From assembly GCF_018698455.1 (NCBI RefSeq), contig NZ_JABIOQ010000074.1:1-64000 (forward strand): 64,000 nucleotides of DNA, read 5' to 3'. This DNA is from Sulfurimonas sp. (lineage in GTDB: Bacteria > Campylobacterota > Campylobacteria > Campylobacterales > Sulfurimonadaceae). Under the pieces are notes generated by a model, which saw nothing but the letters and a program-made list of their open reading frames with translations, did no database searches and was not told the DNA's origin. The translations under genes and the position numbers were made by a program. Shown piece after piece: positions 1,208 through 11,822 of the stretch; the stretch's first letter is position 1; each line of letters begins with the position of its first letter.

Positions 1208-2074
1208 ATGAGCTTGCTCATAACAGGTGCAAATGGTTTTGTTGCTGGTTATTTTTTAAAGAAATACAGTAGAAAATATAAGATAATACGCTTTTCATTT
1301 AGGAATGATGACTTAGCCGGTCTGGACTTAACTTTAGTAGACACCATTATTCATCTCTCAGCTCTTGTTCACCAGATGGGTGGAGCTAGTAAAGAAGAGT
1401 ATGAAAAAGTAAATGTTACACAGACACTAGACTTAGCAAAAAAAGCTAAGGAGAGTGGGGTAGAGCATTTTATCTTTATGAGTAGTGTTAAAGTCTTTGG
1501 TGAGGAAAGTGATGGTGTTTACAATGAACAAACTGAGTGTCATCCGCAAGATGAATATGGAGTGAGTAAGTTAAATGCCGAACTTGAACTTACTAAGCTA
1601 GAAGATGATAGTTTTAGAGTCTCTATTATCAGAACACCAATAGTATATGGGCATGGTGTTAAAGCAAACATAAAGAACCTTGTGTCTCTTGTCAATAAAG
1701 TTTCAATACTACCATTTGCTGATATTGAAAATAAACGCAGTATGGTCTATATTGGAAACTTATGTCATTTAGTGGATATGATAATTGAAAAAAAAGAGAG
1801 TGGTATATTTTTAGCATCTGATGATGAGGCTATTTCTACTACAAGACTTATAGAGCTTATAGCAAAAGAGTTAGATAAAAAAATATATTTGGTTAAAATT
1901 CCATTTTTTGAAACTTTACTGAAGGTTGTTAAGCCGTCTTTTCATAAGAGACTTTATGGGAGTTTAGAAGTTGACAATACTCTTACAATGAAAAGGCTTT
2001 TTGGTGAGGCTAAAGCCACACTTCCGTATAGTGTTGAGGATGGGATACGGTTGATGATACAGGGTATTAAATAA
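1208..2074 (+). CDS. NAD-dependent epimerase/dehydratase (extended SDR)
   Basis: A 288-residue extended SDR enzyme, probably a UDP-hexose 4-epimerase or reductase making a nucleotide sugar for the local glycan. The Rossmann motif TGANGFVAG lies at residues 6-14, the catalytic Ser is in MSS (91-93), and the YxxxK pair is Tyr117/Lys121. It starts directly after the GT4 stop with no gap. In related clusters this gene type is followed directly by the phosphosugar transferase; here about 3.2 kb of toxin-antitoxin genes lie between them. A 57-bp piece of its 3' end (2000-2056) recurs at 4302-4358. The exact substrate is unknown. Confidence 0.85.
   Translation: MSLLITGANGFVAGYFLKKYSRKYKIIRFSFRNDDLAGLDLTLVDTIIHLSALVHQMGGASKEEYEKVNVTQTLDLAKKAKESGVEHFIFMSSVKVFGEESDGVYNEQTECHPQDEYGVSKLNAELELTKLEDDSFRVSIIRTPIVYGHGVKANIKNLVSLVNKVSILPFADIENKRSMVYIGNLCHLVDMIIEKKESGIFLASDDEAISTTRLIELIAKELDKKIYLVKIPFFETLLKVVKPSFHKRLYGSLEVDNTLTMKRLFGEAKATLPYSVEDGIRLMIQGIK
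2000..2056 (+). repeat. Gene-tail direct repeat, copy 1 (inside the epimerase gene)
   Basis: These 57 bases of the epimerase 3' coding end match 4302-4358 at 55 of 57 positions; the differences are g2009/c4311 and t2032/a4334. A further 13-base block at 1960-1972 also recurs at 4291-4303, so the downstream copy is an epimerase tail lacking about 29 internal bases. Confidence 0.93.
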
Positions 2075-4301: not shown

Positions 4302-4358
4302 TTTGGTGAGCCTAAAGCCACACTTCCGTATAGAGTTGAGGATGGGATACGGTTGATG
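4302..4358 (+). repeat. Gene-tail direct repeat, copy 2 (epimerase 3'-end echo)
   Basis: A non-functional copy of the epimerase C-terminal coding end; in frame it still reads GEPKATLPYRVEDGIRLM. It differs from 2000-2056 at two bases. Upstream bases 4291-4303 continue the similarity to 1960-1972, with about 29 bases missing between the blocks. It sits directly before the yefM gene, so the hepT/ATPase block is bracketed by two direct copies of the same gene tail 2302 bp apart. Confidence 0.92.
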
Positions 4359-8021: not shown

Positions 8022-8069
8022 TTGTAAATATATTATAATACTCTTAAAAGAACTATTAAGGATACTCTA

Positions 8070-8261
8070 ATGACTATATCGGCAAATGAGATAAAAAAAC
8101 ATGGTGTTACAATATTTGATGATATGTTAAAAAAATTTGATGAACTGATTATCAATGTACGTGGTAAAATAATTATGCAGTATCGAGTACTAATAGACTT
8201 TATCATAAAAAATAATGAGATTATACCTATAGATATTGGAACTCATGATGAAGTTTATTAG
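8070..8261 (+). pseudogene. Antitoxin N-terminus fused in frame to a RelE-like toxin C-terminus
   Basis: A 63-codon frame with a ribosome site (AAGGATA). The first about 34 residues (TISANEIKKHGVTIFDDMLKK, then VRGK) look like a Phd-type antitoxin start. The last about 25 (QYRVLIDFIIKNNEIIPIDI, GTHDEVY) look like the C-terminal strand and active-site end of a YafQ/RelE-like toxin. This is what an in-frame deletion inside an antitoxin-toxin operon would leave. The product lacks the antitoxin neutralising tail and most of the toxin, so activity is unlikely; it could still be a small DNA-binding protein. The family calls are from memory of such proteins. Confidence 0.7.
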
Positions 8262-8266
8262 TTGAT

Positions 8267-9082
8267 ATGAAATATTTCTTACTTCTTTTCCTTTTTACAT
8301 CACTTTTTTCACAAGAAAGAACTCGTGTAAAAGAGCCAGAACTTTTACTTTTAAACAAATATAATACAGATAAAAATGTAAGTGGCTGGTATATGAGTGA
8401 GAAGCTTGATGGGGTTCGAGCTTATTGGGATGGAAAACAACTCATCTCCAGAAATGGAGTTGTTTTTACTCCACCTCAGTTTTTTATAAAGGATTTTCCT
8501 AAAACAAAACTAGATGGGGAACTTTGGAGTAAACGCAGTGACTTCTCCCATATATCTTCAATAGTAAACACACATAAACCTACAACTAACTGGAAAAAGC
8601 TAACTTACAACATCTTTGAAGTCCCTAACTCAAGTGGGAACTTAATGCAAAGACTAACTACTGTAAAAGAATCAAAATATATAAAACTCATTAAGCAAAT
8701 AAATGTAAAAGATAAAAACCACTTAGATGAATTTTTAAAAAGTGTAGAGCAGCTTGGTGGAGAGGGGATTGTCGTTCGTGATGGAAGTTTAGATTATTAT
8801 GCTTCTAGAAACAACAGTGCTTTAAAAGTAAAAAGTTATCAGGATGAAGAGTGTAAAATTATGTCTTATACTGATGGAGAAGGAAAAAACCTAGGAATGA
8901 TAGGCTCTTTAGTTTGTAAAATGCAAGATAAAAAACTTATAAAAATTGGAACGGGATTAACTAATGAAGAGAGAAAAAATCCTCCTAAAATAGGAAGTGT
9001 GATTACATTTAAGTACTATGGTCTCACATCAAAAGGAAACCCTAGGTTTCCAGTATATTTACGAGAGAGAAAAAGTTTTTAA
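8267..9082 (+). CDS. ligE: Periplasmic ATP-dependent DNA ligase (Lig E type)
   Basis: A 271-residue minimal ATP-dependent DNA ligase. A signal peptide (MKYFLLLFLFTSLFS) is followed by motif I EKLDGVRAYWDG with the adenylated Lys46. GEGIVVRDG near 165 and LKVKSYQDEECKI near 188 are the later nucleotidyltransferase motifs, and a short OB fold ends the protein. Lig E enzymes carry a leader directing them to the periplasm, where a role in uptake or repair of exogenous DNA has been proposed. A competent host would fit the many signs of gene transfer nearby (inference). The ATG lies 5 bases after the antitoxin/toxin relic. Confidence 0.85.
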   Translation: MKYFLLLFLFTSLFSQERTRVKEPELLLLNKYNTDKNVSGWYMSEKLDGVRAYWDGKQLISRNGVVFTPPQFFIKDFPKTKLDGELWSKRSDFSHISSIVNTHKPTTNWKKLTYNIFEVPNSSGNLMQRLTTVKESKYIKLIKQINVKDKNHLDEFLKSVEQLGGEGIVVRDGSLDYYASRNNSALKVKSYQDEECKIMSYTDGEGKNLGMIGSLVCKMQDKKLIKIGTGLTNEERKNPPKIGSVITFKYYGLTSKGNPRFPVYLRERKSF

Positions 9083-9084
9083 GA

Positions 9085-9127
9085 CTAGCTTATAACATGA
9101 GCCACAAATTTACTCATATTATCCATA
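9085..9127 (+). repeat. Gene-tail direct repeat (echo of the GSS-like gene 3' end)
   Basis: These 43 bases match 10812-10854 at 39 positions. Read on the minus strand they encode MDNMSKFVAHVIS and a stop, against MDNISKFEAHVIS in the intact gene. The echo begins exactly at the stop codon, two bases after the ligase stop. hipBA lies between the two copies, 1727 bp apart. Confidence 0.9.
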
Positions 9128-9128
9128 C

Positions 9129-9157
9129 TTGACTGACAAATTTAAACTAGATATAAT
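9129..9157 (+). promoter_or_regulatory. Sigma-70 promoter of hipBA
   Basis: TTGACT (9129-9134), 17 bases, TATAAT (9152-9157). The promoter starts at the edge of the gene-tail echo, and the -35 TGACT resembles the TGACT of the GSS coding strand at 10859-10863, so the -35 box may be derived from the displaced gene end. Confidence 0.8.
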
Positions 9158-9217
9158 ACTTCTTATATTAAGTTTTAGATAATTTTAAAGCTTATAAAAC
9201 TTATTATAGGAAGTTTT

Positions 9218-9526
9218 ATGATTGAATTGCAGACACCATCCGAAATAATAGATAGATTAGCTGAAAATATAGAAAAGCAAAGAATTAAAAAAAGGATGAA
9301 GCAATCAGAATTATGTAAAAATGCAGAAGTTCCACTTTCCACATACCAAAATTTTATATATGAAAAGAAGGTAAATATAATCAATCTGATTAAGATTATG
9401 TATACTCTGAGAATGTGGGATAACCTTGAAGGCTTAACTAAATATGAAGAAGTAACGAGCATTGAAGAGATGAAACTTATGCATAAAAACAAGAGACTTC
9501 CAAAAAGAGTGAAGGATAAAAAGTGA
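9218..9526 (+). CDS. hipB: HipB-like antitoxin / XRE-type regulator
   Basis: A 102-residue protein with a helix-turn-helix: RIKKRMKQSELCKNAEVPLS followed by TYQNFIYEKK is the usual HTH_3 layout. In HipBA systems HipB binds operators, represses the operon and sequesters HipA. An AGGAAG ribosome site lies before the ATG, and the stop overlaps the hipA GTG by four bases. AT-rich dyads occur between 9160 and 9217 but no canonical TATCC-N8-GGATA operator is seen. Confidence 0.82.
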   Translation: MIELQTPSEIIDRLAENIEKQRIKKRMKQSELCKNAEVPLSTYQNFIYEKKVNIINLIKIMYTLRMWDNLEGLTKYEEVTSIEEMKLMHKNKRLPKRVKDKK

Positions 9527-10815
9527 AACAGCAAGATTTACTCGAAGTTGAAGCTTTTATATATGGAATGAAAATTGGAACCATGATTATGCATCATAAT
9601 CGAATTTATTTTGAGTATGATAAAGTATTTATTACAAAAGATATTGAGATATCTCCTTTAAAATTAAATACAAAATATATTGATATACCGTATACTAATA
9701 AAGAGAGCTTTGAAATATATCAGGGAATGCCAGGTGTATTTTTTGACTCCTTACCAGATAAGCATGGTATGCCTTTTATATACAGATACTTTGAACAAAA
9801 AGGTTTTTCAGTAGGAGATGTAACACTACTACATAAATTAACATTTATTGCAGATCGTGGACTTGGAGCAATAGAATATAAACCAAAACAAAAGCAAAAA
9901 ATCAGACAAATAGAAGATGTTATTTCTGTGAAAAGCCTACATGAAGATATGAGAAAAATCTTAGAAAAAGATCAACATAATTATTCTATAGACATGCTTA
10001 TGAACATTATAGATAGTGCATCACCTGTAGGTGGAGCAAGACCAAAAATGCTGATATCATATAATAAAGACACAAAACAGATTAAATATAATAATAAAAC
10101 ACTCAACAATGGTTACGTAAGAGCTATAATAAAATTTGATGAAGTTTACCCAGATGAAGATTTAATAGATAGAAGTATTGATCTCACAAAATTAGAGTAT
10201 ATCTATATGTGCATGGCTAAAGAGTGTGCCATAGATACATCAATTATACACTTGCATGTAGAAGATACTCAGAATCATTTAGTAATAGAACGATTCGATA
10301 GAGATAATCAAGATAATAAAATTCATATTTGTAGTGCTTCTGGCCTTATGCATAAAGATATTAGTGTAGCAAATGTTATGTCATATGAAGAACTTTTTGC
10401 ATTTACGAATAAAATATGCAGCAAGCAAGCAGATGTGAAAGAATTATATAAAAGAATGATTTTTAATGCACTATCTTTTAATGTTGATGATCATGCTAAA
10501 AACTTTGAATTTATGATGAATAAATATGGAGACTGGAGCCTTTCTCCTGCTTTTGATATTACATATTCCAAGGGTGTAGTAAGAGCACACATAACAAGTA
10601 TAAATGGAAAAAATGAAGACTTTGTAATTGATGACTTTTTGAGTATTGCTAAAAAAAATCTAATAAGTGAAAAAGAAGCATTGAAAATTATAGACACCGT
10701 ATCTAACAAACTTCTTGAGTTTGGACAAAGAGCAAGAAAACTTAATATTGATGAAAATACAATTCACGAGTGTGAAGAAAATATAAAACAACAAAGAAGT
10801 CTTCTGAAACCCTAG
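9523..10815 (+). CDS. hipA: HipA-like serine/threonine kinase toxin
   Basis: A 430-residue HipA-fold kinase; E. coli HipA phosphorylates GltX and causes persistence. The P-loop-like autophosphorylation region is SASPVGGARPKM (165-176), the catalytic motif FNVDDHAKN spans 319-327, and the metal-binding Asp is in SPAFDI (Asp345). It starts at GTG9523 with an AAGGAT site and ends at 10815, where CTAG serves both as its own stop and as the stop of the convergent GSS-like gene. The two stops overlap by four bases because the cassette ends exactly at the gene-tail repeat. It appears intact. Confidence 0.85.
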   Translation: MKQQDLLEVEAFIYGMKIGTMIMHHNRIYFEYDKVFITKDIEISPLKLNTKYIDIPYTNKESFEIYQGMPGVFFDSLPDKHGMPFIYRYFEQKGFSVGDVTLLHKLTFIADRGLGAIEYKPKQKQKIRQIEDVISVKSLHEDMRKILEKDQHNYSIDMLMNIIDSASPVGGARPKMLISYNKDTKQIKYNNKTLNNGYVRAIIKFDEVYPDEDLIDRSIDLTKLEYIYMCMAKECAIDTSIIHLHVEDTQNHLVIERFDRDNQDNKIHICSASGLMHKDISVANVMSYEELFAFTNKICSKQADVKELYKRMIFNALSFNVDDHAKNFEFMMNKYGDWSLSPAFDITYSKGVVRAHITSINGKNEDFVIDDFLSIAKKNLISEKEALKIIDTVSNKLLEFGQRARKLNIDENTIHECEENIKQQRSLLKP

Positions 10816-10854
10816 CTTATAACATGAGCTTCAAATTTACTTATGTTATCCATA
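10812..10854 (+). repeat. Gene-tail direct repeat (3' end of the intact GSS-like gene)
   Basis: This is the native-position copy of the 43-base repeat also found at 9085-9127 (39 of 43 identical). It encodes the last 13 residues and stop of the GSS-like protein on the minus strand. Confidence 0.9.
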
Positions 10855-11822
10855 GTCTCTGACTCATTACTAAAACTAAGTCCACAAGCCTCATAAGCGA
10901 AAAACACTTTTGCTTTTCTTTTAGACTCTTGCGTTTCTTGATATATCTTTTTGAAGTTTGAGTACTCTGGACCTTCTCCAAAAACTGTTTTTTCTATACT
11001 TCCCTCAAACTCTTCAAATGATGTCTTAAGAAGATATGGTGAGTCTGGATATAAATCTTGAAGTACTTTCATCATTCCACGAGATTCAAAGAGTGCTGTG
11101 TATGCAGGATTGATTATGATGGCTTGTTGATTATTGATGATATTAGTTATGTCAGTTAGAAGTTCACCCTCATCAGTTGCCATATCTAACCAAGAGTAGT
11201 TTTTACACCAGTACTCATAACTTTCACCATTTTCATCATGTATACCATCTTCATTAAATTCCACTTCATGCAGATAAGAAAAACTACAGCTAAACCCAGC
11301 GTCTTCAGCCATCTGTTGCAGTAGTCTTGAGTCTCTTTCTTTAGTTTCATCATCGCTAGGAGATGAAAAAAGAATCTTCCAGCCATCATATCTTTCATCA
11401 AAGTTCTCAACTCCATCATCAAGGGTTAGAAGTCTTTTAAAATTTTTGCTGATACTTGCATATATGTCATTAAACTGTGAGTCTTCAAGCTGTTCTTGTG
11501 ATGCATCATAGAGACCACTAGGCGTGTCAGCTTCAAATCCAAGAAGTTTTATGGGTTGCTTATCTATACCGCCACTAAGAAGAAATGCACCATAAACATG
11601 CCAGTGAACATCATTTTCCCAACTTTTTTTAATGGCATCGACAAGATTAAAAGGTATACCCAGGTCGAAAAAAAGCTCATTTTCTATGACATGCTCAGCA
11701 GCTTCTACATACATGTCATAAAGTTCATTGACTGAGTGGTAGTAAGTATCAGCCTCTTTTTGAGAGAGCTTAACCACCGAAAAATCCACCTGATCTTTTA
11801 GCTGATGTTTTTGAACTTCCAC
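10812..11822 (-). CDS. Glutathionylspermidine synthase-like ATP-grasp protein
   Basis: A 336-residue protein of the GSP_synth family, named after an amide-bond-forming ATP-grasp enzyme; the role in Campylobacterota is unproven. Typical blocks are NELYDMYVEAAEHVIEN, FNLVDAIKKSWENDVHWH, PYLLKTSFE and a C-terminal EACGLSF ... DNISKF. The assigned start overlaps the UPF0323 gene by 53 bases; a GTG about 15 codons downstream is an alternative. Compared with relatives I remember, the N-terminus seems a few dozen residues short. It follows the UPF0323 gene as in Helicobacter, supporting a shared envelope-related role. Confidence 0.75.
   Translation of the reverse strand: MEVQKHQLKDQVDFSVVKLSQKEADTYYHSVNELYDMYVEAAEHVIENELFFDLGIPFNLVDAIKKSWENDVHWHVYGAFLLSGGIDKQPIKLLGFEADTPSGLYDASQEQLEDSQFNDIYASISKNFKRLLTLDDGVENFDERYDGWKILFSSPSDDETKERDSRLLQQMAEDAGFSCSFSYLHEVEFNEDGIHDENGESYEYWCKNYSWLDMATDEGELLTDITNIINNQQAIIINPAYTALFESRGMMKVLQDLYPDSPYLLKTSFEEFEGSIEKTVFGEGPEYSNFKKIYQETQESKRKAKVFFAYEACGLSFSNESETMDNISKFEAHVIS

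Follow-up and report, generated by a model that had tools for sequence, protein, structure and literature searches.

The window that we analyzed, a 64-kb stretch lying on contig C24 of a Sulfurimonas genome, contains a gene for an ATP-dependent DNA ligase on the plus strand (positions 8267 to 9082) and, pointing toward it from the minus strand, a glutathionylspermidine-synthase-like (GSS-like) gene (10812 to 11822). A toxin-antitoxin (TA) module lies between the two. Its second gene (9523 to 10815, plus strand, GTG start) encodes a HipA toxin kinase of 430 amino acids, recognized through the Pfam domain HipA_C (E value of 4e-42). The preceding open reading frame (ORF) (9218 to 9526, plus strand, 102 amino acids) overlaps hipA by 4 bp. 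It had no match to Pfam or NCBIfam in a family search, and we assigned it as a HipB-like antitoxin from its position before hipA and its 36% identity to a HipB-like protein from locus L038. The arrangement is that of a HipBA module, namely, a HipA_C kinase domain with a small HipB-like antitoxin gene ahead of it. A promoter-like site, TTGACT-17-TATAAT (11/12), is found at 9129 to 9157 on the plus strand. As read from its sequence, the 1.7-kb cassette is a complete hipBA module with its own promoter-like site.

The cassette is bounded by a direct repeat, between whose copies we found hipB and hipA alone, with no integrase gene inside the 1.7-kb insert. Positions 9085 to 9127 (echo A) and 10812 to 10854 (copy B) are identical at 39 of 43 nucleotides (91%), and the similarity may reach 58 bp at 83% when a gap is included. 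Copy B is the live gene's own tail; it reads MDNISKFEAHVIS up to the stop on the minus strand, and the repeat starts at the first base of that stop codon (10812, CTA, which is TAG on the minus strand). Echo A has the same orientation and repeats the final 43 bp of the GSS-like gene, stop codon included. Translated in frame, it gives MDNMSKFVAHVIS plus stop, and it begins 2 bp past the stop codon of the ligase gene. At the other end of the cassette, the hipA stop TAG (10813 to 10815) overlaps the GSS stop within the motif CTAG. Thus, the analysis bore out two claims of the original prediction, that an echo of the GSS tail stands on both sides of hipBA from the stop codon onward and that hipA ends in a CTAG common with the GSS stop.

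The whole 64 kb contains only one other simple direct repeat pair, and it too surrounds TA-type genes. Its gene copy (2000 to 2056, plus strand) lies near the 3' end of an epimerase gene (1208 to 2074) and its echo at 4302 to 4358 (plus strand, 96%), with a HEPN-like and an AAA_14 gene in between. The same architecture had been claimed for this TA cassette. The repeat pair is indeed present, but it is less clean than that around hipBA: the final 18 bp of the gene are missing from the echo, a matching piece stands just upstream across an internal deletion, and the echo departs from relatives at points where the epimerase gene agrees with them. Upstream of the HEPN-like gene, positions 2267 to 2556 hold an MNT nucleotidyltransferase-like frame with no canonical in-frame start near its beginning; read by eye, the closest ATG, at 2267, belongs to a different frame.

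Comparison with relatives indicates which parts of the locus are additional. In several of them, pglF is convergent with GSS and directly beside it (24 bp apart at L032), so the interval from 8022 to 10811 in the window is extra. Two relatives (L050 and L345) have the epimerase gene adjoining wecA. The extra DNA of the window thus flanks wecA-pglF, with 3.2 kb of TA-type genes on one side and, on the other, 2.8 kb comprising a small ORF, the ligase gene, and hipBA. The ligase may be native at this place, since genome G079 (L320 and L085, taken as one genome from their identical ligase match) also has a ligase gene between pglF and GSS. Echo A and the ligase stop are 2 bp apart, and a convergent ligase/GSS pair with that same spacing is therefore the likeliest entry site, with the ligase as the probable pre-insertion neighbor of the GSS stop. 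Most likely, then, hipBA entered the end of the GSS-like gene in such a pair. The relatives, of which the nearest is only ∼72% identical in GSS, carry a single GSS tail. The original prediction was to be abandoned if the echo proved to be the remnant of a complete second GSS gene; at the relatives' loci examined, we found neither such a gene nor an echo of the GSS tail, and we rejected this origin.

We compared both tails with the GSS family consensus, NMSKFVGHVI, of which NMSKFVGH is present in the majority of the relatives' GSS ends that we read; the tail is shorter in a clade of nearer relatives. Echo A is closer to the consensus than the live gene, keeping M and V at positions where the latter has I and E. 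The divergence is therefore not simple decay of the echo; had the copies been identical at the start, the coding one should have changed less. These residues weakly suggest that the noncoding echo A may be the more ancestral copy, and the differences run in the direction that would be expected if copy B arrived with the incoming DNA. With equal mutation rates in both copies, all three polarized changes would fall in copy B with a p value of ∼0.125 (about 1 in 8), and the synonymous and nonsynonymous counts in the short repeats are too small to discriminate. Since we found neither a same-species strain with an empty site nor a donor genome, the roles of donor and recipient are assigned from three or four polarized bases. 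The original idea that one of the tails arrived with the incoming DNA is plausible, as the echo holds consensus residues that the gene's own tail does not. In a GSS tree, the gene of the window branches outside the short-tail clade, whereas a carB tree places the window among the short-tail genomes; this disagreement about its neighbors indicates that the GSS gene has a mixed history.

To measure how often such repeats occur in Sulfurimonas, we scanned stretches, from a few kilobases up to about 12 kb long, with one criterion throughout. The flanks of hipA loci were tested first against cross-locus pairs, and those of the window scored 54 bits (E value of 1e-10) versus 39.7 for the best cross-locus match. 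Simple repeat pairs were present in 4/20 hipA stretches and in 4/40 stretches around C5 methyltransferases of restriction-modification (R-M) systems, or 3/40 without L276, which we left out for its palindromic, terminator-like repeat, a judgment made after the result was seen. L151 was counted through the hipA that selected it, yet the flanked module there is the neighboring R-M system. Among the controls, pairs occurred in 0/20 random stretches (180 kb), 1/20 glycosyltransferase stretches (180 kb; L313, apparently a dispersed repeat), and 1/80 GSS-region stretches (858 kb; L033). At L033, a 48-bp, 88% repeat encloses an NYN-domain gene and a small ORF (9049 to 10453), possibly another such module. 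The original prediction would have failed had flanking repeats been no commoner at TA modules than in random intergenic sequence. With L276 omitted, they were commoner at hipA and R-M loci pooled (7/60 versus 2/120; Fisher P = 0.007), with controls that are not fully independent because the GSS-region stretches share homology; the P value was 0.004 for hipA stretches alone and 0.10 for C5 stretches alone. No such pair was found around five other TA genes of the window genome (L159 and L337 to L340, with L340 only 3.4 kb long and L337 and L338 read from contig starts) or in a further C5 stretch (L341). Flanking repeats are therefore no general feature of TA modules. The genome is AT rich and short repeats do occur in it, but the cross-locus, random-stretch, and whole-window controls together led us to reject chance similarity, whose probability we consider negligible.

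Other loci of the genus carry comparable scars. At L151, an R-M system (C5 methyltransferase plus HNH nuclease) adjoins a convergent BtuF-like gene within a 39-bp, 92% pair, the second copy of which begins exactly at the stop of that gene. At L252, a C5 methyltransferase stretch lies inside a 112-bp, 88% pair that runs from the exact stop of a HypD-like gene, the tail of which we take to be that of HypD. There, it is the gene that agrees with the consensus of 15 relatives, while the echo shows decay at invariant residues, a polarity opposite to that in the window. The window, L151, and L252 share one layout: a full gene with its tail, the cassette, an echo of the last base pairs of the gene through the stop, and then the old downstream sequence. 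In these three clear gene-tail cases, the repeat edge falls exactly at the stop codon (3/3). Repeats flanking hipBA measure 96 bp at L141, 26 bp at L142, and 216 bp at L145, and most of the repeat copies are nonidentical (80 to 97% at L111, L141, L142, L145, L151, L251, and L252). L251 (3567 to 7491, G016:C47) shows nested scars: a C5 R-M system sits inside a 660-bp, 96% duplication of a gene that we named riboflavin synthase from its sequence, and the cassette edge bears 77 bp from the tail of a Sel1-like gene, which is itself found further upstream in the same stretch. The riboflavin synthase copies differ by 9 synonymous and 5 nonsynonymous codon changes, compared with ∼22% synonymous expected by chance. 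The 77-bp edge piece is consistent with a ragged, nonspecific end of incoming DNA.

The 3' end of GSS looks like a repeated landing place, because divergent hipA modules sit there in two other lineages. Of the 66 GSS loci for which 2 kb or more of sequence downstream was available, L038 (6982 to 8611) and L050 (7076 to 8504) carry hipA modules that converge on GSS, and the three hipA products found at this site, that of the window included, share 23 to 32% identity over aligned parts. We noticed this coincidence after the fact; on a rough assumption of 0.7 to 1 hipA per genome, random placement would put two or more hipA genes at the GSS site with a probability of ∼0.001 to 0.002. The modules of L038 and L050 are unrelated to that of the window and have hipA before a small helix-turn-helix (HTH) gene, whereas the window has hipB before hipA.

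We propose, with a probability of about 0.5, that the 43-bp pair is a scar left when foreign DNA entered the end of the GSS-like gene through recombination with an anchor on one side only. The ligase and GSS genes would until then have converged with 2 bp between them. DNA from another strain or species, in which hipBA abutted a GSS tail of its own, would have entered the cell; the window genome encodes a ComEC homologue. One end would have recombined homologously within GSS, such that the live gene gained the donor tail (copy B). At its other end, immediately ahead of the hipB promoter, the fragment would have been attached to the recipient gene 43 bp before that gene's end with little or no homology, so that the recipient's own final 43 bp stayed behind as echo A. 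The same product could arise by a single crossover if the incoming molecule were circular and carried the gene tail alone. A length of 43 bp is short for RecA-dependent exchange, which would place the crossover deeper within GSS. A repeat edge at the stop codon is expected where donor and recipient become unrelated. Once inserted, hipBA would help to keep the DNA in place because its loss would be punished, and recombination between the repeats could still remove it. We infer that ordinary homologous recombination on one side and an illegitimate joint on the other account for the layout, with no need of a recombinase. Laboratory work on plasmids in E. coli offers a parallel in homology-facilitated illegitimate recombination, which likewise combines one homologous end with one nonhomologous joint, or duplicates part of the anchored gene by a single crossover; circular molecules with partial homology gave partial target duplications of 109 to 950 bp (PMC3240628). 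Those events were observed directly, whereas in the window the process is deduced from a natural scar.

The main rival is true target duplication, in which a staggered break or a copy step doubles a long, variable stretch and the two identical copies diverge later. Furuta et al. (2010), according to papers citing them, reportedly described an H. pylori R-M insertion with long target duplication. Long, variable target duplications, with flanking repeats of ∼100 bp, have been documented at R-M systems of H. pylori and other genomes (PMC3874152; PMC1643837), and repeats of 65 to 395 bp with 86 to 98% intrastrain identity flank six H. pylori systems, with an empty site carrying a single repeat copy where the system is absent (PMC10423294). 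Like these, the window has direct repeats in the range of tens to hundreds of base pairs around a small addiction-like cassette without its own integrase, in the same phylum, and by analogy the putative scar matches "insertion with long target duplication." It differs in that the cargo is HipBA rather than an R-M system and that the repeat, at 43 bp, is shorter and coincides precisely with a gene tail through the stop. The echo at L252 and the second echo of the window look like postinsertion decay, as target duplication would have it. Against it, few of the repeats are identical, the edge at the stop codon in all clear gene-tail cases would be a coincidence if duplication were blind, and in the window the noncoding echo seems more ancestral than the selected gene tail. 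On balance, we consider target duplication unlikely here, though a serious contender.

A larger duplication followed by decay, in which GSS and its neighbors were doubled with hipBA in between and most of the second GSS was then deleted, finds a precedent in the whole-gene duplication around the R-M system at L251 and would accommodate the possible 58-bp extent of the window pair. It fits poorly with the single GSS tails of the relatives and with the hipB promoter-like site, which starts 2 bp after the repeat, and we find it distinctly improbable. Slightly more doubtful still is att-like, site-specific recombination at gene 3' ends, catalyzed in trans by an integrase, possibly the genome's own integron integrase (410 bits, G000:C20) or one of its other tyrosine recombinases. 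Islands mobilized by tyrosine recombinases resemble the window in that the incoming copy replaces the gene end and displaces the old end to the far side; unlike them, window-type inserts have no integrase, variable repeats, and unrelated target genes. Integron cassettes, known from the genus and from the window genome, likewise hold TA modules between repeats, but their repeats are attC sites. The window repeats encode a conserved GSS tail without similarity to the attC-like sites of the G000:C20 array, and a cassette origin was rejected on that ground. The GSS tail can form a hairpin (z of -2.7, echo strand), whereas the tails at L151 and L252 fold no better than shuffled sequences, and we rejected hairpin-directed insertion as well. 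Two echoes had originally been taken to point to a common docking mechanism rather than chance: the controls exclude chance, but one-sided recombination would suffice to explain the layout without a dedicated recombinase.

This type of scar is already known for Helicobacter R-M genes and is seen here around a toxin-antitoxin module. The literature that we searched, of partial coverage, contained no description of hipBA with such a flanking scar; one abstract mentions a cyanobacterial TA module with a direct repeat at either side (PMC7935541). The finding bears on how small TA and R-M modules spread without transposases or integrases. As a tentative extension, it is possible that TA and R-M cassettes of Campylobacterota share an integrase-free route with core-gene tails as anchors, the donor tail entering and the recipient echo staying behind, and that some gene ends, such as the 3' end of GSS, are reused. 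If so, both kinds of module would have one entry route, and a mechanism discussed for R-M systems would extend to toxin-antitoxin modules. Scars that keep the recipient tail beside that of the donor would let the direction and mechanism of insertion be tested from sequence alone, and flanking repeats are predicted to mark unstable, losable copies.

Elsewhere in the genus, several ParE loci resemble attC arrays, as does one R-M locus; these were set aside. The L336 region (G000:C20:28000-47000) is a chromosomal integron with the integrase mentioned above, attC-like repeats, and ParE-type TA genes in the array. A short dispersed repeat (AAAAGTGGAGATTCATTCAC and variants) lies beside ParE genes at L208, L214, and L220, in three Sulfurimonas genomes, and dispersed hairpin repeats (CCCGCACTAAAGTACGGGTTCC and variants) occur near glycosyltransferase genes at L246 and L238.
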